The translations under genes and the position numbers were made by a program. From Ancylobacter sonchi (GTDB taxonomy: Bacteria; Pseudomonadota; Alphaproteobacteria; Rhizobiales; Xanthobacteraceae), in contig NZ_JAHBGF010000028.1 in the NCBI RefSeq assembly GCF_018390695.1, forward strand, positions 248,001 through 312,000: a stretch of 64,000 bases of DNA, read 5' to 3'. The notes beneath the pieces were generated by a model. That model saw only the letters and a list, made by a program, of their open reading frames with translations, did no database searches and was not told the DNA's origin. This document shows, one piece after another, positions 48,405-61,541 of the stretch. Position 1 is the stretch's first letter. Every line of letters starts with the position of its first letter.

Positions 48405-49592
48405 TCAGTGGCTGGAACTGCGGATGCGGCGCTCGATACGGAGGCTGAGCAGCGACATCGCATAGCAGCAGATGAAGAAGACCAGTGCTGCGAAGGCGTA
48501 GCCCTCCCGGCCGAGGCCGAGCCAGTTGGGGTCCTTGATCGACTGGCCGACCACGCCGAGCAGATCGAACAGGCCGATGATCGACACCAGCGTGGTGTCC
48601 TTGAACAGGTCGATCACGGTGTTGACGATGCCGGGCACCACCAGCCGGAACGCCTGCGGCAGCACGATCAGCCGGTGCGCGCCCCAGAAGCCGAGACCGA
48701 TCGCCGCCGCCGCCTCGTACTGGCCCTTGGGGATGCCCTGTAGGCCGGCGCGGATGATCTCGGCGAAATAGGCGGCGACGAACAGCGACAGGCCGATGAT
48801 CGCCCGCACCAGCCGGTCGAAGGTGACGCCCTCCGGCAGGAACATCGGCAGCATTACCATCGCCATGAACAGCACGGTGAGCAGCGGCACGCCGCGCAGC
48901 ACCTCGATGAAGGCGGTGCAGCTCCAGCGGATCACCGACAGCTGCGAGCGCCGGCCCATGGCGAGCACGACGCCGAGCGGCAAGGCCAGCACCACCGTGG
49001 CGAAGGTGAGGATGATGTTGAGCGACAGTCCGCCCCATTGGTCGGTCGGCACGAAAGGCAGGCCGAACACGCCGCCGATCAGCAGCACGGCGGCGACGGC
49101 CGGGCACAGCGTGACGAGCAGCAGCACCGACAGCGCCCGGTGCGGATTGCGCGACCACAGCGATAGTGCCGCGAAGCCGGCAAGGAGCGCCAGAGCGACG
49201 TCGACCCGCCAGCGCTCCGCCGGCGTGTAGCGGCCATAGACGAACTGTTCCAGCCGGTCGGCGATGAAGGCCCAGCAGGCCCCGGCGCCACAGACGCTGC
49301 GATTTGAGCCGTCGAAGACGGCGTCGAGAAACGCCCAGCGGAACAGGGGCGGCAGGGCGAGGCCGAGCAGCAGCAAGGTGAGAACGCTGAGCGCCCCCAT
49401 CAGCGGCGAGCTGAACAGATTGGCGCGCAGCCAGCGGCGCGCCCTCGCGGTGGTCGTCGCGCGGCGCTTCGCTACCGCGCCCGCCTCCCGGTTCGCGGCC
49501 GCATTGGAAGAGGCCGCGCCATTCAGGGGCGCATCGACGAGGGGGGAGCCTCCCGTCGTGCCGGTGCCGGCGAGAGCGATCTTCTCGGTCAT
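48405..49592 (-). CDS. aapM: General L-amino-acid ABC permease (AapM-like)
   Basis: A 395-residue polar amino-acid permease of the AapM/HisM type, longer than the minimal HisM because of an N-terminal extension and extra loop between helices 1 and 2 (SNRSVCGAGACWAFI region), a known AapM feature. The EAA motif is YEAAAAIGLGFWGAHRLIVL. It pairs with AapQ, three bases upstream. The Aap system of rhizobia imports many L-amino acids. No ATPase (AapP) gene follows; the next gene is convergent. Confidence 0.92.
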   Translation of the reverse strand: MTEKIALAGTGTTGGSPLVDAPLNGAASSNAAANREAGAVAKRRATTTARARRWLRANLFSSPLMGALSVLTLLLLGLALPPLFRWAFLDAVFDGSNRSVCGAGACWAFIADRLEQFVYGRYTPAERWRVDVALALLAGFAALSLWSRNPHRALSVLLLVTLCPAVAAVLLIGGVFGLPFVPTDQWGGLSLNIILTFATVVLALPLGVVLAMGRRSQLSVIRWSCTAFIEVLRGVPLLTVLFMAMVMLPMFLPEGVTFDRLVRAIIGLSLFVAAYFAEIIRAGLQGIPKGQYEAAAAIGLGFWGAHRLIVLPQAFRLVVPGIVNTVIDLFKDTTLVSIIGLFDLLGVVGQSIKDPNWLGLGREGYAFAALVFFICCYAMSLLSLRIERRIRSSSH

Positions 49593-49595
49593 GGC

Positions 49596-50744
49596 TCAGC
49601 GCTCCTTCAGCGCGACGCGCTCGTTCAGCTGCGCGAGGGCGGCGGAGGCGGCGAGGTTGATGATCAGGAACACGCCCATCACGATCACCATCACCTCGAT
49701 GGCGCGACCGGACTGGTTGAGCACCGTGCCGGCGAAGATCTGCACGATTTCGGGATAGGCGATGGCGGCGCCGAGCGAGGAGCTCTTGATCAGGTTGAGA
49801 TACTGGTTGGTCAGCTGCGGGATCATCAGCCGCAGCGCCTGCGGCAGCACCACCAGGCGCAGCGTCAGCCAGGAACTCAGCCCGAGGCTGTTCGCCGCCT
49901 CGACCTGTCCCTTGCCGATCGCTTCCACCGAGGCCCGCACGATCTCGGCGACAAAGGCGGCTGTGTAGAGCGACAGGCCCGCCCACAAGGCCACCAGCTC
50001 CGGCGGCAGCACCATGCCGCCGGCGAAGTTGAAGCCCTTCAGCGCCGGCAGGCTCCAGCCCTTCAGGCTGAAGGCGAGCGCGATGAGCAGCAGCGGCGGG
50101 ACCAGCCAGAGCAGGCTGCTCCGGCGCGGATGCAGCGGAAGGTAGCGGCGGGCCAGAGGTGCCAGCGCGAGGCTGAGGAAGAAGGCGATGAGAAGCACGC
50201 TGCTCCACGGGCCGCCGATCGGCGCCGGCAGGAACAGGCCGCGTATGTTTAGGAAGGCGACGTCGCCGAAGGACAGGCTCTGGCGGGCTTGCGGCAGCAC
50301 TTGCAGCACGCCGACATACCAGAACACGATCTGCAGCAGCTGCGGCGTGTTGCGCACCAGTTCGACGATGGCGCCGGAAACGGTCGACAGCAGCCAGTTG
50401 TGCGACAACCGCATCACCCCGAGCCCGAGCCCGACGACGGTGGCGGTGATGACGCCCATGGCCGAGACCAGCAGCGTGTTGGCGAAGGCGGTCACCAGCG
50501 CCATGAAATAGGTGTCGGTCGGGCCGAAGGACAGGATCTGGAACGGCATGCTGAAGCCGGCCGGGCTTCCGAGGAAGCCGAAGTCGAGCTGCATGCTGCG
50601 GCGGGCGAGATTGCTGGCGGCGTTCTGCGCGAACCAGGCGATGACGAGCCCCCCGATAAGGAGAGCCACGCCCTGCATCAGCAGGGCGTGGGAGGCTTTC
50701 ATCGGCCAGAGCGAAGAGCCGCCCTTACGCGACTTTCCGGCCAT
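49596..50744 (-). CDS. aapQ: General L-amino-acid ABC permease (AapQ-like)
   Basis: A 382-residue permease with AapQ layout: helix 1 at residues about 15-35, a long periplasmic insert, and five helices with the EAA-type loop VEAANSLGLSSWLTLRLVVL. SKGQxxAA variants of the amino-acid family are visible. It forms a heterodimer with AapM. Nine bases separate it from the binding-protein gene. No anomaly is seen. Confidence 0.92.
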   Translation of the reverse strand: MAGKSRKGGSSLWPMKASHALLMQGVALLIGGLVIAWFAQNAASNLARRSMQLDFGFLGSPAGFSMPFQILSFGPTDTYFMALVTAFANTLLVSAMGVITATVVGLGLGVMRLSHNWLLSTVSGAIVELVRNTPQLLQIVFWYVGVLQVLPQARQSLSFGDVAFLNIRGLFLPAPIGGPWSSVLLIAFFLSLALAPLARRYLPLHPRRSSLLWLVPPLLLIALAFSLKGWSLPALKGFNFAGGMVLPPELVALWAGLSLYTAAFVAEIVRASVEAIGKGQVEAANSLGLSSWLTLRLVVLPQALRLMIPQLTNQYLNLIKSSSLGAAIAYPEIVQIFAGTVLNQSGRAIEVMVIVMGVFLIINLAASAALAQLNERVALKER

Positions 50745-50753
50745 GCGCGGATC

Positions 50754-51800
50754 TCAACGGAACGGCAGCGGGTAGTGCAGGCCGCCCTGGTTCCAGAGAT
50801 TGTTGATGCCGCGCGGCAGGCCTAGCGCCTTGGGGCCGAAATAGGCGTCGTAGATCTGGCCGTAATTGCCGACGGACTTGATCGCCCGATAGAACGCCTC
50901 GTTGTCGAGGCCGAGCTTCTTGCCGAAATCGCCTTCAAGGCCGAGCAGGCGGCGCACGAAGGGATCGCTCGAGCTCTTCTTCTCGTCGACATTCTCCTTG
51001 GTGATGCCGAATTCCTCGGCGGTCTTCAGGCCGGCATCGACCCAGAATACGATGTCCGACCAGCGGTAGTCGCCGTCGCGGGTGTGGAGGCCCAGCGGCT
51101 CCTTGGAGATCACGTCCGGCAGGATGACCCAGTCGTCCGGGACCTTCATGGTCGAGCGGGCGGCGGCGAGCGAGCCGGTATCGTCGGAATAGCCGTCGCA
51201 GCGGCCGCTTTCCGCCGCGGCGAAGGCTTCCTCGGACTTCTCGAACAGCAGCGAGTTGATCGTGGTGCCCTTGGAGCGGGCGAAGTCGGCGATGTTGAGC
51301 TCCAGCGTCGCGCCGGTGAGCATGCACATGGTGGCGCCGTTGAGCTCGGCCGCCGAGTTCACGCCGAGGCTCTTGCGCACCATGAAGCCCTGGCCGGCGT
51401 AGAAGTTCACCGCCACCTCGGTGAGGCCGAGATCGATGTCGCGGGCGAAGGTGAGCGTGGAATCGCGCACCAGCACGTCGATTTCGCCGGATTGCAGCAC
51501 GGTGAAGCGCACCTTGGCGGTGGTGCCGACATATTTCACCTTGGCCGGATCACCCAGCACCGCGGCCGCCAGCGCCTTGCAATAGTCGACGTCGAAGCCC
51601 TTCCAGGCGCCGCTGGCGTCCTGGAAGGCGAAGCCGGGAATGCCGGCGTCGACGCCGCAATTCAGCTCGCCGCGCTTCTTGATCGCCTCGACGGTCGGGC
51701 CGGGGGCCGGGATGCTCTGGGCCATCGCGGAGGCGCTGACCAGAACGCTACCGGCAAATAATGCCAGGGTCTTGAGAAGAGTACGGCGGGCTTTCGTCAC
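50754..51800 (-). CDS. aapJ: General L-amino-acid binding protein (AapJ-like)
   Basis: A 348-residue periplasmic receptor. Signal peptide to about AMAQ, then RGELNCGVDAGIPGFAFQDASGAWKGFDVDYCKALAAAV, the AapJ/BztA signature, followed by DVLVRDSTLTFARD. The C-terminus PRGINNLWNQGGLHYPLPFR matches AapJ. Start GTG 51800 with AGAGGA eight bases upstream; the frame continues upstream into non-coding sequence. It is transcribed 98 bases downstream of the class IV transaminase, so that gene leads the operon. Confidence 0.92.
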   Translation of the reverse strand: MTKARRTLLKTLALFAGSVLVSASAMAQSIPAPGPTVEAIKKRGELNCGVDAGIPGFAFQDASGAWKGFDVDYCKALAAAVLGDPAKVKYVGTTAKVRFTVLQSGEIDVLVRDSTLTFARDIDLGLTEVAVNFYAGQGFMVRKSLGVNSAAELNGATMCMLTGATLELNIADFARSKGTTINSLLFEKSEEAFAAAESGRCDGYSDDTGSLAAARSTMKVPDDWVILPDVISKEPLGLHTRDGDYRWSDIVFWVDAGLKTAEEFGITKENVDEKKSSSDPFVRRLLGLEGDFGKKLGLDNEAFYRAIKSVGNYGQIYDAYFGPKALGLPRGINNLWNQGGLHYPLPFR

Positions 51801-51898
51801 GGCGACAATCCTCTGGAAGGTTGGAAAGGTCTTGTTTCTTGGAAGGCTTCCTTGAAAGGCGTTCTCGTGGGCGTGGCTCGGGGCGCGGTGCCCGGAGA

Positions 51899-52840
51899 TC
51901 AGACCGTGGTGTAGTCGACCAGCTCGCCGTGCCAGCCGGCCTTGCGCTTCTCCCAATAGGTCTCGCGCAGCTTCTGGGTGAACGGGCCGGGACGGTCGTT
52001 GTTGAGGATGCGCCCGTCGAGCCGGCTGACGCCGATCGGACCACCGGCGGTGGAGGACACCAGGATCTCGTCGGCGTCGCGCAGTTCCTCGAGGCTGACG
52101 TCGCGCACCTCGCAGGGGAGGCCGAGTTCGGCGCAGAGCTCGATCACCGACATCCGGGTGATGCCGCCGAGCACATTGCGGTCGGGTGTGGCGACCACGC
52201 CGTTGGTGATGCAGAAAACGTTGTAGCCCGGCCCCTCGGTGACGTTGCCGGCGGCGTCGAGCAGGATCGGGTTGTCGGCGCCCTGGGCGTCGGCCTCGAA
52301 CAGCGCCGCGGTCATGTCGGCCCAGTGGAAGTTCTTCGCACGGGCGTTGACCGAAGCCTCGGGGATACGTGGCGTCGAGGCGATGACCATATGGGCGCCA
52401 CGCTCGATGATCTCCGGTTTCATCAGCCAGATGAATGGGATGGCGTAGGCTATGAGGTAGGGGCGGGCGTTCTTCGGGTGATACTGCGTGCCCGGCGCCG
52501 GGCGCCCGCGCACGCAGTCCATCGCCACATAGGCCTCGCGCAGGCCGGCGAGGGCCACCAGCTTGTGCAGGATGGCACGGATCTCGTCGTCGCTTTCCGC
52601 CGGGATGAGGTGCGAGAACTCCATCGAGGCGCGGAAGCGCTTGAGATGGTCGTCGAGGCGGAAGAACGTCCCGTCCCAGACGCTCACCACGTCATAGACC
52701 ACGTCCGAACGGCGATAGCCCCAGTCGGTGACCGGGATGCGCGCCTCGCTCAGCGGCATGAACGCGCCATCCATATAGGCGGCGCCAGCGGCGAAAGCGG
52801 AGGTATCGGAGACCGTCGGGGACTGGATCGGGAGGTTCAT
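51899..52840 (-). CDS. Class IV PLP transaminase, similar to (R)-selective amine transaminases
   Basis: A 313-residue fold-type IV aminotransferase. The Schiff-base lysine is Lys169 (NARAKNFHW), and the phosphate-binding and Glu residues appear in LTEGPGYNVF and STAGGPIGVSRLDG. The segment GYRRSDVVYDVVSVWDGTFFRLDDH closely resembles the (R)-amine transaminases of Arthrobacter and Aspergillus (…[21 protein letters not shown], recalled, not searched) rather than IlvE or D-alanine aminotransferase. It leads the aapJQM operon behind a strong promoter with a TGTGATCACA site. True substrate and stereopreference are inference. Confidence 0.82.
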   Translation of the reverse strand: MNLPIQSPTVSDTSAFAAGAAYMDGAFMPLSEARIPVTDWGYRRSDVVYDVVSVWDGTFFRLDDHLKRFRASMEFSHLIPAESDDEIRAILHKLVALAGLREAYVAMDCVRGRPAPGTQYHPKNARPYLIAYAIPFIWLMKPEIIERGAHMVIASTPRIPEASVNARAKNFHWADMTAALFEADAQGADNPILLDAAGNVTEGPGYNVFCITNGVVATPDRNVLGGITRMSVIELCAELGLPCEVRDVSLEELRDADEILVSSTAGGPIGVSRLDGRILNNDRPGPFTQKLRETYWEKRKAGWHGELVDYTTV

Positions 52841-52955
52841 GTCGCGGTCCGTTTCGCACGAGGGTTGACGTCGCCACCCGGACGCCACGCGACATCGCGG
52901 GCGCCGTTGCCTGGCGGCAGCAGCGGAAAATGAAGGAGTTTGGGCGCGATCTCTA

Positions 52956-52965
52956 TGTGATCACA
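52956..52965. promoter_or_regulatory. TGTGATCACA operator copy 1 (transaminase/aap promoter)
   Basis: Perfect 10-bp palindrome, 14 bases downstream of the -10 element of the minus-strand promoter at 52980-53007. It is therefore close to the transcription start, a position expected for repression. Candidate site of the GntR regulator encoded at 53211. Confidence 0.7.
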
Positions 52966-52979
52966 GGGAAGCGAGATGG

Positions 52980-53007
52980 ACTATAGGGCTGCTCAAAACG
53001 GTGTCAA
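52980..53007 (-). promoter_or_regulatory. Sigma70-type promoter of the class IV transaminase/aap operon
   Basis: Reading the minus strand: TTGACA (53002-53007), 16 bases, then TATAGT (52980-52985). Both boxes are near consensus. The predicted start is near 52973, with a 5' leader of about 130 bases to the ATG at 52840. Confidence 0.75.
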
Positions 53008-53101
53008 TTACTGCGTATGACCATAAAATATGCGATTAAGGATGCAAAGCTGAGCATGCATCTCGCTGGTTGTGTGCGGAGAAGGGCGGTGAGCTGCCGG
53101 G

Positions 53102-53111
53102 TGTGATCACA
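53102..53111. promoter_or_regulatory. TGTGATCACA operator copy 2 (upstream of the GntR gene)
   Basis: Second perfect palindrome, 100 bases before the regulator start at 53211. The ATG at 53070 would place it inside the coding region, a further reason to prefer 53211 as start. Suggests autoregulation. Confidence 0.65.
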
Positions 53112-53210
53112 TTCGACCCGCGACGTCGGACTGGCCATTCCGGCTGCAAAATCCGTGATATAGCCGCAGTGGCCGATGATGCGGATGCCGAGATGGTCGG
53201 GGAGTGGGCG

Positions 53211-53921
53211 ATGGTGGATCTGGAGGCGAACAGGGCGGGGCACACTCTCTCCGGACAGATCGCCGACGCTTTGCGTCATCGTTTACTGATGGGCGAGTTT
53301 CTGCCAGGCGCGAAGCTGTCGCTGCGTTCGCTGGCGGCCAGTTATGGCACCAGCATGCAGCCCGTGCGCGACGCGGTCTCGTCCCTCGTGGCCGAGGATG
53401 CGCTGGAGATCACGCCAACGCGGGTGATCCAGGTTCCCGAGCTCAGTCGCCAGAACTGTGACGACATCTTCCGCATGCGTGCGCTCATCGAGGGAGACGC
53501 CGCCGCGCTGTTCGTGCGGCGCGCGAGCGAGCAGGAATTCGTCGAACTGCAGGCACTGTCGGAGGCCGTACGCCCGGCGCAGCTCGGCATGGCCTTTACC
53601 GACCATATGCGCGCGCACATAAGGGGCTTCAACGACTGGTCGTTCTTTGTCGGCGACCGTTGTGGCTCGCCGCTGATGATGACGCTGATCCATCGCCTAC
53701 GCGTGCGGATGGCGCCGGCGGTGGCGCTCGCGCTGTGCCGCGACGCCGACGAGGACTACTCCTTCCTCGAATTCTCCACTCACATCATGATGGAAATGGC
53801 CTGGGCGGCCCGCTCGCGCGATGGCGAGCGCATGCGCGACCTGCGCCGGTCCGACATTCTCACCTATCAGCGCTATCTCTACCGGCGCCTCGGCTGGTCG
53901 CTCGAAGGGGCGTCTTTCTAG
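53211..53921 (+). CDS. GntR family transcriptional regulator (FCD type)
   Basis: A 236-residue regulator. The winged helix occupies residues about 10-75 (IADALRHRLLMGEFLPGAKLSLRSLAASYG, where the last part is the recognition region), and the FCD effector domain follows (DDIFRMRALIEGDAAALFVRRA, HMRAHIRGF). Start 53211 is favoured by GGGGAG at six bases. It sits between two divergent units, each with TGTGATCACA at its promoter, and upstream of one copy itself, so it is the natural regulator of the class IV transaminase/aap operon and of the class III transaminase/EamA operon. Confidence 0.9.
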   Translation: MVDLEANRAGHTLSGQIADALRHRLLMGEFLPGAKLSLRSLAASYGTSMQPVRDAVSSLVAEDALEITPTRVIQVPELSRQNCDDIFRMRALIEGDAAALFVRRASEQEFVELQALSEAVRPAQLGMAFTDHMRAHIRGFNDWSFFVGDRCGSPLMMTLIHRLRVRMAPAVALALCRDADEDYSFLEFSTHIMMEMAWAARSRDGERMRDLRRSDILTYQRYLYRRLGWSLEGASF

Positions 53922-53933
53922 CCGGGCTCCGCT

Positions 53934-53943
53934 CGTGATCACA
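53934..53943. promoter_or_regulatory. Near-copy of the operator (CGTGATCACA)
   Basis: Nine of ten bases match TGTGATCACA. It lies 13 bases after the regulator stop and about 90 bases upstream of the -35 box of the class III transaminase promoter, so it could act as an auxiliary site for DNA looping with copy 4. Confidence 0.5.
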
Positions 53944-54029
53944 GCGCAGCGTCAGGCGCCGCGGTGTGGCGCATGAGCGGCATCACGGCGCCTTTTTATT
54001 CTGACGAATACTGACGACGACATTCTCGC

Positions 54030-54059
54030 TTGACCGCCGTCGCGCTGCGCCCTTAGCCT
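54030..54059 (+). promoter_or_regulatory. Candidate sigma70 promoter of the class III transaminase/EamA operon
   Basis: TTGACC (54030-54035), 18 bases, TAGCCT (54054-54059), or TTAGCC one base earlier with a 17-base spacer. The operator TGTGATCACA begins nine bases after the -10, overlapping the expected transcription start. Confidence 0.55.
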
Positions 54060-54068
54060 TGCCCCATC

Positions 54069-54078
54069 TGTGATCACA
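54069..54078. promoter_or_regulatory. TGTGATCACA operator copy 4 (class III transaminase promoter)
   Basis: Perfect palindrome located between the candidate -10 (ending 54059) and the ATG at 54098. Its position over the start site mirrors copy 1 at the opposite operon and implies repression by the same protein. Confidence 0.7.
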
Positions 54079-54097
54079 CAAGACGAGAGGCGCGACG

Positions 54098-55477
54098 ATG
54101 AACGTCCTGGCGCGGGGCACCAATCTTCCCGGCAATTCGGCTCTGCTGCCGTTCTCCAACCTGCAGAAGCTGCGGGAGGAGCGTCCGCTGATGTTCGTGC
54201 GGGGGCAAGGCATCTACACCTTCGACGAGCAGGGCAAGGACTACATCGAAGCGGTCTCGACCTTCTATTGCGTCAATCTCGGCTTCAGCGACGAGGAGCT
54301 GATCGAGGCGGCGGTGGAGCAGCTGCGCGCCCTGCCGATGTATCCGTCGGGCATTCACCGGACGGTGCCGGTGGTGCTGGAGCTGGCCGAGCGGCTGGCG
54401 GCGGTCGCCCCCGTGCGCGGCGGCCATGTGATGTTCGCCACCACAGGCTCGGAAGCGAACGACCAGCTCGTCAAATTCACCTGGTACGCCAACCGCGTCG
54501 CCGGCGAGCCGAAGCGCCGCAAGATCATCTCGCGCCGCGCCAGCTATCACGGCGGCACCATCGCCACCACGGCTCTGGGCGGCAGCGCCGGATTGCAGGA
54601 CGCGTTCGGAATCCCGACCGGCGACAGCCTGTTCGTCTCGCATCCGACCTGGCCGATCGGTGCGCTGCCGGGCGAGACCGAGGTCGCCTACACCGACCGC
54701 CTGGTCGCGGAACTGCGGCAGACCATCGAGGATGCCGGACCGGAGACCGTCGCCGCTTTCATCGCCGAGCCGGTCTCGGTGTCGTCGGGCATGTTTCCGC
54801 CGCCGGTCGGCTACTTCGCCAAGACCAAGGCGCTGCTGGACGGCTACGGCATCCGCCTCTATGCCGACGAGGTGGTGACCGGCTTCGGCCGCACCGGCAA
54901 GATGTGGGGCAGCGAGACGCTTGGCATCGAGCCCGATTGCATCAGCTGCGCCAAGGGTTTGTCCGGCGCCTACCAGCCGATCTCGGCGGTGGTGATGTCG
55001 GACGATTTCTACAGCCATCTCGAGGAAGGCGCCAACGCCGCCGGCATCTTCAACCATGGCGGCACCTATGGTGGCCATCCGGTGTCCGCCGCCGTCGCCC
55101 TCAAGGTGCTCGACATCTATGAGCGGCGCAACATTCTCGGCCATGTGCAATCGGTGATGCCGGCCTGGCAGAAGGCGCTGGCGAGCCTGGAAGATCACCC
55201 GCTGGTCACCGCCACCCGCTGCTTCGGCATGGCCGGCGCCGTGCAGATCGCCCCGCCGGGCGAGGGCGCCCCGGCTGCCGCTTCGCCCTCGCTGGCGCCC
55301 GGCGGGCTCAGCCAGCAGCTCTACATGGCCGGGCTGGCGGCCGGCGTGGTGGTGCGTCCGCTGCAGGGATGCGTGGTGCTGTCGCCGCCGCTGATCATCA
55401 CCGAAGCCGAGATCGGCGAGCTGGCTCGCCGGCTGCGCCTCGCCCTCGACGCGACCCTCGCCGCGCTTCCGCGCTGA
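54098..55477 (+). CDS. Class III omega-transaminase
   Basis: A 459-residue fold-type I aminotransferase of the omega-amino acid/amine:pyruvate group. Features are FATTGSEANDQ, SYHGGTIATTALGG (Tyr150), PLP-ring aspartate Asp257 (YADEVVTGFGRTG) and lysine Lys286 (SCAKGLSGAYQPISAV). The ACAKGLSSGYxPI-type lysine motif is that of (S)-selective omega-transaminases. It is controlled by the same operator as the divergent class IV transaminase. AGAGG is seven bases before the ATG. The C-terminal half has a Pro/Ala insertion (GEGAPAAASPSL). Confidence 0.88.
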   Translation: MNVLARGTNLPGNSALLPFSNLQKLREERPLMFVRGQGIYTFDEQGKDYIEAVSTFYCVNLGFSDEELIEAAVEQLRALPMYPSGIHRTVPVVLELAERLAAVAPVRGGHVMFATTGSEANDQLVKFTWYANRVAGEPKRRKIISRRASYHGGTIATTALGGSAGLQDAFGIPTGDSLFVSHPTWPIGALPGETEVAYTDRLVAELRQTIEDAGPETVAAFIAEPVSVSSGMFPPPVGYFAKTKALLDGYGIRLYADEVVTGFGRTGKMWGSETLGIEPDCISCAKGLSGAYQPISAVVMSDDFYSHLEEGANAAGIFNHGGTYGGHPVSAAVALKVLDIYERRNILGHVQSVMPAWQKALASLEDHPLVTATRCFGMAGAVQIAPPGEGAPAAASPSLAPGGLSQQLYMAGLAAGVVVRPLQGCVVLSPPLIITEAEIGELARRLRLALDATLAALPR

Positions 55478-55533
55478 TCCGGCGCCTGCCGTGACGGGTC
55501 GGCTCCGGCTGGCCCGTCGGCCGAGTTCCCGAC

Positions 55534-56391
55534 ATGTCCCTCACCGACAAGCTCCTGGCGGCGGCCGTGGTCGCCTGCTGGTCCGCCAATCTCGTGCTGG
55601 TGAAGCTCGGCGTGGCGGAAATTCCGCCGCTGCTGATGAGCCTCTTGCGCTTCATGCTGGTGGCGGCGCTGCTGGTGCCGCTGAAGCGGGTCTCGCGCCG
55701 GCAGCTGCCATGGATCCTGCTGGTGTCCGTCACCTTCGGCGCCATGCATTTCGGCTTCCTGTTCATCGCCCTCGGCGTCACGGAGGCTGGCACCAGCGCG
55801 GTGCTGGTGCAGCTTGGCGCGCCGATCGCCAGCCTGCTGGCCTGCCTGGTCTTTCGCGAGCCGCTCGGCGTCGTGCGCGCCGCAGGGCTCGTCATGACGG
55901 TGGTCGGCGTGGTGGTGCTGGCGCTCGGCCCTACCTTTCCCGGTCCGCTGGTGCTCGGCTTGCTGGTCGCCAGCGCCACCGGCTGGGCAATCACCAATCT
56001 GGTGGTGAAGCTGATGCCGCCCATCGACGCCATGGCGCTGACAGGCTGGTCGGCGTTGTTCGCCATCCCGCAAATGGCCCTCGCCACGGCCCTGTTCGAG
56101 GACCACGCGTGGGCCAGTCTCGCCGGTGCCGGCTGGCATGGCTGGGCGGCGGTGGTCTACAGCGCGCTTGTCTCCTCGGTACTGGCCTACGGCATCTGGT
56201 ACCGGCTGCTGGCGCGCAATGCGGTGAACGCCGTCGTGCCTTATTCCATGCTGAACCCGGTATTCGCCATCGGGCTTGGCGCTCTTGTCTTCGGCGAGAC
56301 CGTGCCGGCGCTCAAGCTGGTCGGCACGGCGCTCATTCTCGCCGGCGTGGTGCTCGTGCTGCTGCCGCGCCGGACGCCGGCGGTCGGCTAG
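55534..56391 (+). CDS. EamA/DMT family exporter
   Basis: A 285-residue inner-membrane protein with ten helices in two EamA repeats (first about residues 5-135, second about 145-280, the latter with MLNPVFAIGLGALVFGETVPALKL). Members export amino acids and other metabolites. It follows the class III transaminase after 56 bases and is probably co-transcribed, so it may export a product or an excess amino acid of that system. The ribosome site is weak. Confidence 0.88.
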   Translation: MSLTDKLLAAAVVACWSANLVLVKLGVAEIPPLLMSLLRFMLVAALLVPLKRVSRRQLPWILLVSVTFGAMHFGFLFIALGVTEAGTSAVLVQLGAPIASLLACLVFREPLGVVRAAGLVMTVVGVVVLALGPTFPGPLVLGLLVASATGWAITNLVVKLMPPIDAMALTGWSALFAIPQMALATALFEDHAWASLAGAGWHGWAAVVYSALVSSVLAYGIWYRLLARNAVNAVVPYSMLNPVFAIGLGALVFGETVPALKLVGTALILAGVVLVLLPRRTPAVG

Positions 56392-56403: not shown

Positions 56404-57357
56404 TCAGCCGCGCCGGGCATAGTCCAGCGGCGACGTCCCCACGGCGGCGCGGAAAGCACGGCTGAAATAAGCCGGCTCCGAGAAACCGACGGCATAGGCG
56501 ATGGCGGAGATCGAGGCGCGCGAGAGGTTGCGCGTCTGGAGCAGGCGACGCGCCTCGGTCAGGCGGCGGCTGCGGATCGCCCCAGACGGCGTCTCGCCAT
56601 GTTCCGCGAAGATCTTCTGCAGGTAGCGCTCGGAGAGTTTCAGCGCGATGCCGATGTCGCTGGCGCTGAAATCGGGATCGCGGAAGCGGATTTCGATCAC
56701 CTGCAGCGCCCGCTGGCGATGGGCAAGGCGCACCGCCGTCTCATCGCAATGCTGGTCGGCGCCCGAGATCACCAGCGCGAGCAGATCGAGCAGATGGGCC
56801 GTGATCCGGTGGCCGATGGCTGGGTCGATGGTTATCCCATGGCTGCAGAAGGAATTGGCGAAATCGAGGAAGAGGCGGACCATGACGTGGTCGCCGAAAT
56901 CATGCGCCGTCCAATCGTCGACATGGGGCGTGCGCTCGCGCACGGCGGGGCCGGAAAAGCGCAGGCTGTGGAAGGTCGCCCGCTTCGGCTGGTCGTAGTC
57001 ATAGGCGTCCAGCGAACTGACGAAGGCGAAACGGCCGCGCGCGAGATCAGCCTGCCTGCCGCGTTGGCGGAAGGCCAGTCCCTCGTCCAGCAGCACCGGC
57101 AGGAAGTAGAAGTCCTCCGGCTTGCGGGCGATCAACGGCGCCGTCCGACGCACCGCCACCGGGTCGGAATGGTAGCGGGCGAGCCGGACGCCGGCGATGT
57201 CGACGCTCTGGACCCAGCCCCTCGCGAAATCCGGGGCGGCGCTGAGGTCGACGGCGTAGAAATAATCATGCTGGGCCTCGGCCCATGCCTGCCGCCGCCG
57301 CGACGGGTGCAGGGTGGCGACATCGAACCGGCTCAGGACGGGTGCGGCCTCGTTCAC
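56404..57357 (-). CDS. AraC family transcriptional regulator
   Basis: A 317-residue regulator. The N-terminal AraC-binding-2-type domain covers residues about 40-180 and the C-terminal double helix-turn-helix about 215-315 (FSASDIGIALKLSERYLQKIFAEHG and ISAIAYAVGFSEPAYFSRAFR). It resembles the FeaR/AraC_binding_2 group, whose members activate amine or aromatic catabolism. The start is GTG at 57357. It is divergent to the hyuA/hyuB genes and is the likely activator of them; a palindrome lies between. Confidence 0.87.
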   Translation of the reverse strand: MNEAAPVLSRFDVATLHPSRRRQAWAEAQHDYFYAVDLSAAPDFARGWVQSVDIAGVRLARYHSDPVAVRRTAPLIARKPEDFYFLPVLLDEGLAFRQRGRQADLARGRFAFVSSLDAYDYDQPKRATFHSLRFSGPAVRERTPHVDDWTAHDFGDHVMVRLFLDFANSFCSHGITIDPAIGHRITAHLLDLLALVISGADQHCDETAVRLAHRQRALQVIEIRFRDPDFSASDIGIALKLSERYLQKIFAEHGETPSGAIRSRRLTEARRLLQTRNLSRASISAIAYAVGFSEPAYFSRAFRAAVGTSPLDYARRG

Positions 57358-57666
57358 GGGCGGTCATCCTTGTGAAGCGACATGTGCAAGCCGGATGCGG
57401 ACTTTAGGTTCGGCGGGCGGGCCGGCACAGGCCAAACTTCGCGCAAGGACAAGCCGCTCCATGGGCAGGGCGGCGTATCGGTCGTCTAAATCGCACAACA
57501 AATATGCAAAAATTTAGCCTGCCCCATATGGGGCGGATTTGTCCAACTCTTTGTTCGCTCGATGACAAACGCTCCGCAGCCCGGCGGCTAAACTTTCCTC
57601 GCTTCGGTTTGTGACGGGTCGAGACGCCTCGATCCGCGCCTATCGGATCGTGTCGAGGAGCGTCAG
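57358..57666. other. Divergent region, AraC regulator / hydantoinase operon
   Basis: About 310 bases with no gene. The AraC-proximal part is GC-rich, then an AT-rich block (57486-57520) runs into the palindrome listed below. The hyuA leader (57540-57666) holds no RNA structure I can support. Confidence 0.55.
57521..57534. promoter_or_regulatory. Palindrome GCCCCATATGGGGC between araC-type and hyuA genes
   Basis: A perfect 14-bp palindrome, about 130 bases before hyuA and 160 before the regulator start. Such a site could bind a dimeric regulator. AraC proteins more often bind direct repeats, so a second regulator cannot be excluded. Confidence 0.45.
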
Positions 57667-59739
57667 ATGGCCTATCGCATATCCGTCGATACCGGGGGCA
57701 CCTTCACCGACGTCATCGTCAGCGACGGAGCCGGCGGCTTCGTGATCGGCAAGGCGCTGACCACCCGCAGCCGCATTTTCCTGGGCATGCGCGACGCCAT
57801 CGAAGCCGCCGCGATGCAGCTCGACATCCCGCTCGGGAAGCTGCTCGCCGAGGCTGATCTGCTGATCTACGGCACCACCCGCGCCACCAACGCCATCGTC
57901 ACCAAGACCGTGGCGAAGACGGCCTTCGTCACCACCGCCGGCTTCCCCGACACGCTGCTGCTGAAGGAGGGGGGCAAGTTCAACCCGCACGACTTCAGCC
58001 AGGATTATCCCGATCCCTATATCGCCCGTCGTCACACATTCGAGCTGACGGAGCGCATGGGAGCGGACGGCGTCGCCTCCATTCCGTTCGACGACGCGCA
58101 GGCTCGTGAAGTGATCAGTCGGATCAGAACGCGCGGTTTCGAGGCGGTCGCGGTCTGCCTTCTGTGGTCCATCGCCAACCCGGCGCATGAGGAGCGTTTC
58201 GCTGGCCTACTCGACGAACTGCTCCCCGGCATTCCCTACACGCTGTCGCACCGGCTGGTGCCGGTGGTGCGCGAATATCGCCGCGCCTCGGCGACCGCCA
58301 TCGATGCCTCGCTGAAGCCGCTGATGCAGGATCACCTGCGTGGCCTCGAGAGCGACCTCAAGGCGGCGGGTTTCGCCGGGCAGATACTGGTGAGCACCAC
58401 CGAAGGCGGCTGCAACCATATCGACGCGCTGGTGGAGAAGCCGATCTATACCGTCGGTTCCGGACCGGCCATGGCGCCGATCGCCGGCTTGACGTTCTCC
58501 GGTCTCGAAGCGCTCGGCGACGACGTGATCATCTGCGACACCGGCGGTACCACCTTCGATGTCGGTCTGGTGCGGGACGGGCGGCTGACCTTCACTCGCG
58601 ATACCTGGCTGGGGCCGACCTATACCGGCGACCTGCTCGGCATTTCCGCCGTCGACATGCGCTCCATCGGTGCGGGTGGCGGCTCGATCGCCTGGATCGA
58701 CGATGGCGGGCTGATGCGCGTGGGGCCGCAATCGGCCGGCGCCGAACCCGGCCCGGCCTGCTACGGGCGCGGCGGCACGTTGCCCACCGTCTCCGACGCC
58801 GCCGTGGTGCTCGGTTATTTCGATCCCGACTATTTCCTCGGCGGGCGGATGAAGCTCGACGTCGAGGCGGCGCGGCGCGCGGTGATGTCGGTCGCCGAGC
58901 GGATCGGCCTTTCCATCGAGGAGACGGCGTTCCGCATCCTCAGCCTCGCCAGCGACCTGATGATGCGCGCCATCGCAGACATCACCGTCAATGAGGGCGT
59001 GAATCCGCGCGAGAGCACCATCGTGGCCGGCGGCGGCGCGGCCGGCATCAACATCATGACCATCGCCAAGGAACTCGGCTGCGAGCGGGTGATCCTGCCC
59101 AAGGTGGCCTCGGCGCTCTCCGCCTCCGGCATGCAGTTCGCCGACATCGTCGCCGAGGAGACGGCGAGCCTCGTCACGCTGACCAATCGCTTCGACGCCG
59201 CGGCCGTCAACGAGGTGCTGGCGGGGCTGGAGGCGCGGCTGGAGACGTTCCGCGCCGTGTTGCCCGGCGAGAAGGACGCCTATCGCATCGATCTCGTGGC
59301 CGAGGCCCGCTATCTCGGCCAGGTGTGGGAACTCGACACGCAGCTGCCCGTGCGCCGCTTCACGGGCGATGCCGATCGCCTCGCGCTGGTCGAGGCCTTC
59401 CACCAGGTGCATGAGCGCGTCTTCGCCGTGCGCGATCCCGGCAGCCCGGTCGAGGTGGTCAACTGGAAGGCCCGACTCGTCGTGCACCTCGCCAAGCCGC
59501 CGGAACCGGCGGTGGTCGCGACACGCGTCGAGGCCGGAGCGCCGACCGCCCGGCGCGACTGCTTCTTCGGCGACCGCACGCCGCTGCCCACCGCCATCTA
59601 CAAGGCCGCCGACATCGCGCCCGGCCTCGTCATCGCCGGACCGGCCATCGTCGAGGAGCCGACCACGACGCTCGTCGTCTACCCCGGCATGTCCGCCGAG
59701 GTGAGCGCTTCCGGCAACTACCTGCTGCGCACCGCGTGA
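57667..59739 (+). CDS. hyuA: Hydantoinase A / oxoprolinase (HyuA-type, acetone-carboxylase beta-like)
   Basis: A 690-residue ATP-dependent subunit. The N-terminal actin-like phosphate loop DTGGTFTDVIV (8-18) and YGTTRATNAIV are diagnostic; the second ATPase half has CDTGGTTFDVGLV and GAGGGSIAW. Family members include N-methylhydantoinase, 5-oxoprolinase and the beta subunits of acetone and acetophenone carboxylases. GAGGAG lies six bases before the ATG. It acts with the HyuB protein encoded next; the substrate is undetermined. Confidence 0.92.
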   Translation: MAYRISVDTGGTFTDVIVSDGAGGFVIGKALTTRSRIFLGMRDAIEAAAMQLDIPLGKLLAEADLLIYGTTRATNAIVTKTVAKTAFVTTAGFPDTLLLKEGGKFNPHDFSQDYPDPYIARRHTFELTERMGADGVASIPFDDAQAREVISRIRTRGFEAVAVCLLWSIANPAHEERFAGLLDELLPGIPYTLSHRLVPVVREYRRASATAIDASLKPLMQDHLRGLESDLKAAGFAGQILVSTTEGGCNHIDALVEKPIYTVGSGPAMAPIAGLTFSGLEALGDDVIICDTGGTTFDVGLVRDGRLTFTRDTWLGPTYTGDLLGISAVDMRSIGAGGGSIAWIDDGGLMRVGPQSAGAEPGPACYGRGGTLPTVSDAAVVLGYFDPDYFLGGRMKLDVEAARRAVMSVAERIGLSIEETAFRILSLASDLMMRAIADITVNEGVNPRESTIVAGGGAAGINIMTIAKELGCERVILPKVASALSASGMQFADIVAEETASLVTLTNRFDAAAVNEVLAGLEARLETFRAVLPGEKDAYRIDLVAEARYLGQVWELDTQLPVRRFTGDADRLALVEAFHQVHERVFAVRDPGSPVEVVNWKARLVVHLAKPPEPAVVATRVEAGAPTARRDCFFGDRTPLPTAIYKAADIAPGLVIAGPAIVEEPTTTLVVYPGMSAEVSASGNYLLRTA

Positions 59740-59750
59740 GGGAGACCATC

Positions 59751-61541
59751 ATGAGCACCGGGACGCCCGCCGAGTTCGACCCCTATCTCACCGCGATCAT
59801 CGCCAACCGCGTCGACGGCATCGTCCGCGAGATGACGCATACGCTGCTGCGCGCCGCCCGCTCGGCGGTGATCAACAGCGCCCGCGACTTCAGCTGCTCG
59901 ATCTGCACCGGCGACAACGAATTGCTCGCCTCCGCCGAAGGGCTGCCGATCCACATTTTCGGCAGCCACATGCAGACGCGGGCGATGGCCGATTTCCACG
60001 GCGCCGACATCCGCGAGGGCGACTGCTACCTGCACAACGACCCCTATTCCGGCAACACCCACGCCGCCGACCATACGTTCCTCGTACCGGTGTTCTTCGA
60101 GGGCGAGCACCTGTTCACCACGGTCGCCAAGGCGCACCAGGCCGATATCGGCAACGCGCTGCCCACCACCTATTCGGCGACCGCGCGCGACCAGTACGAA
60201 GAGGGAGCGCTGATCTTCCCGGCGGTACGGGTGCAGCGCGACTACGTCACCGACGAGAACGTCGTGCGCATGTGCCGCTCGCGCATCCGCGTGCCCTCAC
60301 AATGGTATGGCGACTTCCTCGCCGGCATCGGCTGCGCCCGCGTCGGCGAGCGCCGGCTGAAGGAGCTCTGCGCCAAATACGGCAAGGAGCGCGTCAAGAC
60401 CTTCATCCGCGACTGGATGGACTATTCCGAGCAGCGGATGGTGCAGGCGATCCGCAAGCTGCCGGCGGCGACGCTGACCAATAGCGGGGCGCACGACCCG
60501 TTCGGGACGCTGCTGCCGGAGGGCATCCCGCTCAAGGTCACGGTGAAGATCCAGCCCGAGGCGGGCATGATCGATCTCGACCTCACCGACAATGTCGACA
60601 ATGTCGATTGCGGCTTCAACGAGAGCGAGGCCTGCGCCACCTCCTCGACGGTGGCGGGGGTGTTCAACTCGATCGACTCCACCGTGCCGCGCAATTCGGG
60701 CTCGTTCCGACGCATCAAGGTGCATCTGCGCGACGGGGCGGTCGCCGGTCGGCCGAAATTCCCGCACAGCTGCTCGGTCGCCACCACCAACATCGCCGAC
60801 CGGCTGATCAACATCGTGCAGTCCTCCTTCGCCCAGATCGGCGACGGCTGGGGGCTGGCGGAGGGCGGCGTCGGCATGGGCGCCGGCTTCGCGGTGATCT
60901 CCGGCAAGGACGACCGCAGCGACGACGGCGCCTTCGTCAACCAGCTGATCATCACCGGCGCCGGCGGCCCCGGTGCGCCGGCCGCCGATGGCTGGCCGAC
61001 CTATGCGCTGCCGGTGGTCGGCGGGCTGATGTATCGCGACAGCGTCGAGATCGACGAGCTCAAGCACCCGATGCGCTTCCACTTCCTGCGCATCCTGCCC
61101 GGCACCGGCGGGGCAGGGCGCTTTCGCGGCGCGCCAGCGATGGAACTCGCCTACGGCCCGACCAAGTTCGCCATGGACGTGCTCTGGCCCTGCGACGGCA
61201 CCCACTTCGCCCCCAAGGGCGTGCGCGGCGGGCAGGACGGCACCTGTGCCCGGCATTTCCGGGTGGAGGTCGATGGCAGCGAGACCGAGCTGCCCAACAT
61301 CGTCAACATCCGGCTGGAGAAGGGCGCCTATGTGCGCGGCAACCACACCTCGGGCGGCGGGTATGGCGATCCGCGCCAGCGCGATCCGCGCCGGGTGCTG
61401 AAGGACGTCCTCGAAGGCTACGAGACCGAGACCCGCGCCCGCGACCTCTACGGCGTCGTGTTCACCGGGCTGGTTGAGGACGAGACGCTCGACATCGACC
61501 CCGCCGCCACGACCGCCGCCCGCCGGGCGCTGACGAGCTGA
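59751..61541 (+). CDS. hyuB: Hydantoinase B / oxoprolinase (HyuB-type, acetone-carboxylase alpha-like)
   Basis: A 596-residue catalytic partner of HyuA. Conserved blocks are EMTHTLLRAARSAVINSARDFSC, LHNDPYSGNTHAADHTFLVPVF, and, near the C-terminus, RGGQDG and NHTSGGGYGDP. HyuB/AcxA subunits bind the substrate and a metal. The chosen ATG at 59751 has GGGAGA five bases upstream; a GTG at 59736 overlaps the hyuA stop and is the alternative. The next gene encodes a small cysteine protein that probably joins the complex. Confidence 0.92.
   Translation: MSTGTPAEFDPYLTAIIANRVDGIVREMTHTLLRAARSAVINSARDFSCSICTGDNELLASAEGLPIHIFGSHMQTRAMADFHGADIREGDCYLHNDPYSGNTHAADHTFLVPVFFEGEHLFTTVAKAHQADIGNALPTTYSATARDQYEEGALIFPAVRVQRDYVTDENVVRMCRSRIRVPSQWYGDFLAGIGCARVGERRLKELCAKYGKERVKTFIRDWMDYSEQRMVQAIRKLPAATLTNSGAHDPFGTLLPEGIPLKVTVKIQPEAGMIDLDLTDNVDNVDCGFNESEACATSSTVAGVFNSIDSTVPRNSGSFRRIKVHLRDGAVAGRPKFPHSCSVATTNIADRLINIVQSSFAQIGDGWGLAEGGVGMGAGFAVISGKDDRSDDGAFVNQLIITGAGGPGAPAADGWPTYALPVVGGLMYRDSVEIDELKHPMRFHFLRILPGTGGAGRFRGAPAMELAYGPTKFAMDVLWPCDGTHFAPKGVRGGQDGTCARHFRVEVDGSETELPNIVNIRLEKGAYVRGNHTSGGGYGDPRQRDPRRVLKDVLEGYETETRARDLYGVVFTGLVEDETLDIDPAATTAARRALTS

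Follow-up and report, generated by a model that had tools for sequence, protein, structure and literature searches.

A shared ten-letter palindrome appears to place amine uptake and two structurally unrelated transaminases under one FCD-type regulator in Ancylobacter sonchi

The soil bacterium Ancylobacter sonchi appears to switch on amine uptake and two structurally unrelated transaminases jointly, by means of one repressor and a ten-letter palindrome, TGTGATCACA. This reading comes from a comparison of a 64,000-nucleotide stretch of its genome (positions 248,001 to 312,000 of contig NZ_JAHBGF010000028.1, assembly GCF_018390695.1; 'the window', numbered from its first letter) with related loci and genomes. 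Copies of the palindrome lie there at the promoters of three units: a class IV (fold type IV) transaminase gene followed by aapJQM-type uptake genes, the gene of a GntR/FCD regulator (gntR), and a class III omega-transaminase gene followed by an EamA transporter gene. The link between regulator, operator and regulon is highly probable, and comparison lends good support to a regulon with a shared operator; the system is apparently best read as one of catabolic uptake coupled to two complementary deaminations. To an earlier note made from the letters of the window (the original prediction), the analysis adds a conserved pairing of operators, a missing ATPase gene and a second cluster.

Operators in the window and among its relatives

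A scan of the window placed perfect copies of TGTGATCACA at 52956..52965 (O1), 53102..53111 (O2) and 54069..54078 (O4), and a copy matching at 9/10 positions, CGTGATCACA, at 53934..53943 (O3), with no further copy at one mismatch or fewer within the 64 kb; these four matches compare with 0.90 expected (standard deviation 0.95), and 1 of 100 shuffles reached four. The predicted operators precede the ATG of their genes by 115 base pairs (bp) for O1 (class IV), 99 bp for O2 (gntR) and 19 bp for O4 (class III); O1 and O2 are 146 bp apart, and O3, a predicted auxiliary operator, lies 135 bp upstream of O4. Between 52700 and 54200, a promoter scan returned as sigma70-like promoters only a divergent pair, namely that of the class IV/aap unit (52980..53007, minus strand; TTGACA-16-TATAGT, 11/12) and that of gntR (53001..53029, plus strand; GTGTCA-17-TAAAAT, 9/12), and the sites at 52956 (just downstream for class IV) and 53102 are each downstream of their respective promoter. 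The original prediction had described the same four copies and none elsewhere in the window, the same three units, and two sigma70-like promoters with the palindrome just downstream, and the window scan, gene calls and promoter scan agree with it throughout. The probable class III promoter (54030..54058, plus strand; TTGACC-17-TTAGCC) was read from the sequence and fell below the threshold of that scan, and its TTGAC is retained in 6/6 aligned relatives.

Two other accounts of the palindrome were discarded. CRP/FNR-type sites have the consensus TGTGA-N6-TCACA, and the geometry of TGTGATCACA, whose half-sites abut with zero spacer, rules out a site of that type; a chance motif was ruled out by the window shuffles, by placement across the genome and by conservation across loci.

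That conservation was followed through 36 loci with a relative of the class IV gene, 22 of which (L015-L036) have at least 66% identity. Perfect sites are present in all eight loci in which FCD and class III genes stand beside the class IV gene and in none of the 14 without them (Fisher 3e-6 over L015-L036, loci related by descent and so not independent; flanking DNA is short, because of contig ends, in some of the site-free ones, above all L022, L027 and L030). At L020 the class IV locus has no site, and the same genome carries an FCD cluster elsewhere (L261). Several of these loci belong to genomes that are also counted in the genus survey below (L015/G417, L016/G400, L017/G414 and L020/G402), and locus and genus counts therefore overlap. 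Among the closest relatives, O1, O2 and the divergent promoters are largely conserved in the alignment: O1 is kept in L015, L016 and L017, and O2 is perfect in the first two and has one mismatch in the third. The one-mismatch form of O3 is identical in L015, L016, L017 and L019, and the site is perfect in L018, L261 and L262; as judged from this conservation among relatives, the 9/10 copy is a real site.

The genes themselves have been rearranged repeatedly. In the window and in L015-L017 they form divergent units; in L018 and L019 the FCD gene is divergent from a single class III-class IV-aap operon; in L023, L025 and L026 the class III gene is divergent from the class IV gene; and in L261 and L262 an FCD-class III-EamA unit lies next to a class IV gene accompanied by a Pot importer and a second class III gene. 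Despite this rearrangement, sites remain at the class III and class IV promoters in L018, L019, L023, L025, L026, L261 and L262, and they accompany the FCD, class III and class IV genes in Ancylobacter, in Bosea and in one Rhodospirillales metagenome-assembled genome. A site also precedes the FCD gene itself in the window, L015-L019, L261 and L262. In the synteny check that the original prediction had proposed for class IV, GntR and class III genes, the sites stayed with these genes through the rearrangements.

The sites at the class III promoter are paired at a nearly fixed distance. The separation of O3 and the class III operator is 135 bp in the window, 135, 136 and 138 bp in L015-L017, 135 bp in both L018 and L019, 135 bp in L261 and 137 bp in L262, so that the pairing at 135-138 bp holds in 8/8 loci, in which the length of the gap varies from 176 to 349 bp (r ~0) and the DNA between the paired sites is 51-60% identical in the window versus L018, L261 and L262 (z 1.1-3.5). 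Other pairs are spaced by 146-147 bp (135 bp in L017), 103/104, 94, 161 and 166 bp; most spacings fall close to whole turns of the helix at 10.5 bp, with p 0.002 for the phasing over 12 groups and p 0.04 when these were collapsed to 7; the second cluster has no comparable close pair. A constant distance between sites has been used as a criterion for cooperative sites (PMC4494728, in the portion available). The constancy of 135-138 bp despite diverged DNA in between therefore suggests cooperative binding or looping: the paired operators may be bound cooperatively, probably by looping, although the comparison is suggestive only, and looping itself stands at about even chances.

The motif across genomes and its recognition

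Across the 5.8 Mb (47 contigs) of the A. sonchi genome, the scan found seven perfect and 24 one-mismatch copies of TGTGATCACA. All seven perfect copies lie outside genes, in or at promoter regions (later start codons having been chosen by hand where the longest open reading frame crosses the site, at 53102, L006 8380 and L006 10327), as against 13 of 23 one-mismatch copies inside predicted genes (C30:413454 left out; Fisher p 0.010), and the one-mismatch sites outside the clusters look like background. Three of the perfect sites are those of the window, two belong to the second cluster, one lies in a class III/glutamine synthetase divergon, ~30 bp upstream of the class III gene, and one is ahead of an MFS gene; the operons behind five of the seven include a transaminase gene, the remaining two sites standing before gntR and the MFS gene.

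The second cluster (C21:637-655 kb) contains the nearest paralogue of the window regulator (40% identity), together with a class III transaminase only 32% identical to that of the window, a Pot-type importer, HyuA, two HyuB, a Cpn60-like chaperonin and a class IV transaminase. One of its two sites stands at the start of the pot operon, whose last genes are those of class III and FCD, and the other in the gap between chaperonin and hyuA; the arrangement recurs in L245, from another family, with one perfect and one one-mismatch site in the same two places. Pot-type importer genes lie near the class IV gene in 8/17 regions of second-cluster class IV relatives (L244, L245, L253, L254 and L256-L259).

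Several features of these regions deserve separate mention. The Cpn60/GroEL-like chaperonin gene (Pfam 9e-35; L006 8663-10270, C21 ~645.7-647.3 kb) is situated between the pot and hyu operons, and L245 has one in the same place, 47% identical. In L246 and L247, from two other families, class IV, hyuA, hyuB and class III genes are contiguous and in the same direction, and the motif is absent. The same group has a third class IV enzyme in A. sonchi (L244 8701-9594, C21 ~112.7 kb; ~50% identical to that of the second cluster), whose gene lies near Pot-type importer genes with no operator. In another member of the genus, a perfect pair 166 bp apart (L263 10910 and 11076) has an Asp/Glu/hydantoin racemase gene on one side and a mandelate-racemase-family gene on the other, and in L266 (6395) and L267 (6354) perfect sites lie ~55 bp before the longest open reading frame of an aldehyde dehydrogenase gene, similar to succinate-semialdehyde dehydrogenase.

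The regulator of the window (53211..53921, plus strand; likely start at ATG 53211 rather than at TTG 53070 of the longest open reading frame, by orthologue alignment) combines a GntR winged helix and an FCD domain, both above the curated cut-off (PF00392 5.9e-14; PF07729 9.3e-8), and carries the recognition helix TSMQPVRDA. The A. sonchi genome has 43 FCD proteins; the helix was located in 35, of which 28 have Arg at position 45, one each has Lys, Gln and Thr, and the remaining four have Met (window), Met (second cluster), Ala (C8) and Val (C19), with no site found beside the C19 gene.

Seven genomes of Bosea and allied bacteria (G428, G429, G431, G432, G433, G434 and G435) hold 19 perfect sites, 18 of which were inspected (G433:C1:4301564 being left out). 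Ten of these lie in the transaminase cluster, one being L026 12033; of the eight outside it, seven precede FCD-like genes or run across the earliest start codon possible for them, and the eighth lies just after an FCD-like gene and before a second glutamine synthetase-like gene. The FCD-like genes adjoining these sites, which were recognised by similarity and helix with no Pfam scan, have the helix S[MP]MPVREA; five sites of G437-G439 stand outside this count, and G436 has none. The window regulator, its paralogue and the site-adjoining FCD proteins thus have in common the helix S[MIVP][QM]PVR[ED]A.

In Atu1419 of Agrobacterium fabrum, Arg45 reads an essential guanine (PMC7797058, in the part of the report available); in the present group the equivalent of this Arg, elsewhere a conserved recognition residue, is replaced by Met, Ile, Val, Ala or Pro. 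TGTGATCACA departs from the usual spacing as well, with 4 nucleotides between GT and AC, a distance that as a rule, with exceptions, is 2-3 nucleotides in operators of the FadR subfamily (PMC4494728, from the same partial text as above). A full-text literature search for GntR together with TGTGATCACA found nothing. A tentative extension of these comparisons is that an FCD subclade might have its own protein-DNA code, in which a non-Arg helix reads TGTGATCACA, linking amine, polyamine and lactam-type catabolism, and might hold a naturally occurring pair of transaminases that differ in fold, complement each other in enantio- or regioselectivity and answer to a single looped FCD repressor. If so, the link of helix and TGTGATCACA would let the operators of the whole subclade be predicted from sequence.

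Enzymes, mechanism and alternatives

The class IV transaminase (51899..52840, minus strand; searches were run with 51899-52843, one extra codon) has as its closest solved structures (R)-amine transaminases, with E down to 6e-69, which we take to come from Arthrobacter KNK168 and Aspergillus terreus. Its motif 1, RSDVVYDVVS, has Arg for His and otherwise fits the motif of that group, HxxxxYD[VT]x[STAHP]; the window and 22/22 close relatives share RxxxxYDVxS, and the paralogue has RxxxxYDVxG. The first part of motif 2, YVA, fits [FY]V[EQAWNS], and the loop RGRPAPGTQYHP stands at its second part ([RKFGP]x[STANER]) in an alignment of ambiguous register. The motif table of PMC8401098, a source available in part, begins motif 1 with His, and the same text describes a D-amino-acid transaminase, Halhy, in simulations of which the carboxylate of the substrate is bound by an Arg in the same position. 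The Arg shared with Halhy therefore suggests, by analogy, that the substrate would be a D/(R)-configured amine bearing a carboxylate.

The class III enzyme (54098..55477, plus strand; Aminotran_3) has omega-transaminases as its nearest solved relatives (9j4y, class III, 1e-104; 6tb1, 3e-99; 6g4b, 2e-97), the last two presumably being the Pseudomonas jessenii enzyme. Of the earlier claim that the two transaminases have unrelated folds and likely opposite stereochemistry, the difference in fold stands, and complementary stereo- or regiochemistry is plausible from the enzyme families.

The uptake genes follow the class IV gene on the minus strand: an AapJ-type solute-binding protein (50754..51840, start position approximate), an AapQ-type permease (49596..50744) and an AapM-type permease (48405..49592). 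No aapP ATPase gene was found behind these three (48405 to ~51840), and the set thus departs from the composition aapJQMP. In C27 of the same genome, an aap-like set has an ATPase gene behind aapQM, so the AapJQM transporter likely uses the ATPase of another aap operon.

Taken together, these features are consistent with the following mechanism. A GntR repressor of FCD type, from a subclade that reads DNA in an unusual way, would bind TGTGATCACA operators at or just after three promoters and repress class IV-aapJQM, gntR itself and class III-eamA. With spacings of 146 bp and 135 bp, close to whole numbers of helical turns, the operator pairs would allow cooperative binding, probably with looping as in the FCD tetramer Atu1419, until a ligand derived from the imported compound releases the repressor. 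AapJQM, probably with the ATPase of another aap operon, would import an amino compound, upon which the fold-IV transaminase would deaminate a D/(R)-configured, carboxylate-bearing amine and the class III omega-transaminase an (S)- or terminal amine. For the operator-regulator link, conservation, pairing and enzyme families the basis is comparative; repression, looping, ligand, ATPase sharing, substrate and stereochemistry we infer. The explanation as a whole is rather probable, and its component of two complementary deaminations in catabolism is evenly poised.

The same pair of enzymes could instead act upon opposite enantiomers as an amine or amino-acid racemase, and deracemisation or interconversion had been suggested in the original prediction. 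The membership of the class IV enzyme in the (R)-amine transaminase group and the proximity of the class III enzyme to omega-transaminases would suit such a role, and engineered deracemisation by an enantiocomplementary pair is on record (according to a title cited in PMC10761954, available in part). The importer within the same regulon, and the catabolic company kept by the operator (polyamine-type, aldehyde dehydrogenase and HyuAB-type genes), speak for degradation, and no biosynthetic gene is found among neighbours clustered in at least three loci; possible as it is, the suggestion gained no support of its own and is improbable.

A less distant possibility, though a doubtful one, is that a single diamine or diamino acid is deaminated at both ends, class III acting upon the terminal amino group and class IV upon the alpha (D) amino group. 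Pot-type (polyamine-type) importers do take the place of Aap in L261, L262 and the paralogous cluster, the operator also occurs at polyamine-type genes, and the Arg in the class IV O-pocket suits an alpha-carboxylate. Against this, no class III match was found in the seven regions that combine class IV and Pot-type genes (L244, L253, L254 and L256-L259), nor any conserved diamine-specific enzyme among clustered neighbours.

The transaminases might also make an amine or D-amino acid for export by the EamA protein, whose gene (55534..56391, plus strand) follows the class III gene. Among the loci examined, that neighbourhood occurs only in the window, L015, L016, L261 and L262, five loci of the Ancylobacter group in which the gene is accessory; the inclusion of EamA in the regulon by the original prediction finds no support as a general feature. 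No EamA match lies beside the class III gene in L017, L018, L019, L023, L025 or L026, and importer genes were matched in 11/11 loci (in L026 AapJ-like only), which makes production and export very unlikely. Beyond EamA, the window has an AraC-family regulator gene (56404..57357, minus strand) divergent from hyuA-hyuB, of the hydantoinase/oxoprolinase family (57667..61541, plus strand). Neither has an operator; the AraC-family gene is probably a separate module, and the stretch 56404-61541, which varies among close relatives, could be a lactam- or hydantoin-type module. HyuAB was ruled out as a fixed part of the cluster, being present in the window and L016 and not found in L015.

A survey of 30 genomes of the genus bears on whether a single protein reads the motif. 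The six with the window regulator (E<=1e-30) have 3-9 sites each (mean 6.3) and the 24 without it 1-5 (mean 1.9; p 2e-4). A perfect TGTGATCACA at the class III/glutamine synthetase divergon (L007 7800, among loci L060-L086; the assignment of L085 to genome G422 follows from list order) is widespread in the genus. A survey of the order asked whether class III genes of polyamine type generally carry the site: 77 of 150 genomes had a match, five of the 30 loci listed had a perfect and one a one-mismatch site upstream (two of the five perfect sites coming from the own genome and own genus), and eight control palindromes never came below two mismatches there. The idea was ruled out by this survey.

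Several observations weigh against the proposed mechanism, or against its simplest form: (i) all 30 genomes of the genus carry the site, including the 24 without the window regulator, and in all 14 genomes with just one site its place is the class III/glutamine synthetase divergon; (ii) L023, L025, L026 and the second cluster have no site within 700 bp before the FCD gene, and a third copy is present in L026, at 12033; (iii) the 161 bp spacing in L023/L025 is out of phase, and at a period of 10.6 the phase-0 test fails (p 0.12, 0.22); and (iv) relatives of AapJ typically carry L-amino acids, and the stereochemistry of the class IV enzyme is taken from its family, while its motif 1 departs from the (R)-amine transaminase motif. 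The divergon site in genomes without the window regulator means that another protein must read it there.

One such reader could be a global FCD protein, served by the operators in place of the local one. The genus-wide FCD protein beside a puuD-like gene (C8) is a candidate, as it is present in 30/30 genomes, as the site is, and has a non-Arg helix. The sites at class III and class IV promoters co-occur with the local FCD gene, which a site itself precedes in the loci named earlier, and a site at one mismatch or fewer lies near the C8 FCD-puuD pair in only 5/30 genomes, a count that also excluded a fixed pairing of that regulator with the site; a global reader is accordingly a slim prospect. 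The proposal of a single regulator survives for the shared operator, which unites uptake, class IV and class III genes with FCD, and fails as to exclusiveness: the motif is also carried by the cluster with the 40% FCD paralogue, the genus-wide polyamine-type site and other FCD-like genes. 'One regulator, one regulon' appears too simple, because paralogous FCD regulators and the genus-wide polyamine-type site share the operator. The genome scan, which might have exposed a frequent or global motif, found it rare and promoter-bound, yet common to several paralogous regulators, which counts only mildly against the original prediction.

Relation to known systems

A narrow full-text literature search found no description of a natural regulon for (R)-selective transaminases, enzymes that are widely used in chiral-amine synthesis (PMC7228992, in the part available). 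The locus offers a concrete system, probably an inducible one, for seeking the inducer and natural substrate of relatives of these enzymes, and the two-fold transaminase pair, if real, would give them a physiological role. The 135-bp operator pair makes looping repression directly testable in a family with one detailed case (PMC7797058, as far as that text is available).

By sequence, the nearest solved FCD protein to the window regulator is McbR/YncC of Escherichia coli (2.7e-20), which differs in that it is described as a binder of numerous AT-rich sites that carry an ATATAT motif, and as responsive to dihydrofolate (PMC13343897, in the portion available). The class IV enzyme retains the YDVxS and YVA motifs of the (R)-amine transaminases and differs from them by the Arg, as in Halhy, in place of the motif-1 His (PMC8401098, same partial text). 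CsiR regulators are of the FCD type. The caprolactam cluster of P. jessenii, as described in the available part of PMC6061476, resembles the system in its class III omega-transaminase, its ATP-dependent lactamase of the oxoprolinase/hydantoinase family, its CsiR-like regulator and its induced putrescine- and amino-acid-type binding proteins; the likeness is closest to the paralogous cluster, and extends to the contiguous class IV-HyuA-HyuB-class III genes of L246/L247. It differs in its regulator and in that a fold-IV transaminase is not among the parts described there; the HyuAB of the window, for its part, has no operator. The closest parallel in regulation is Atu1419, an FCD/VanR-type GntR protein that, in the available text of PMC7797058, likewise has 10-bp palindromes at its own and neighbouring promoters and a degenerate second palindrome, with looping between paired sites that here would be predicted by analogy; its operator is ATGTATACAT and its helix has Arg45, whereas in the present group the operator is TGTGATCACA and the helix residue Met, Ile or Val.

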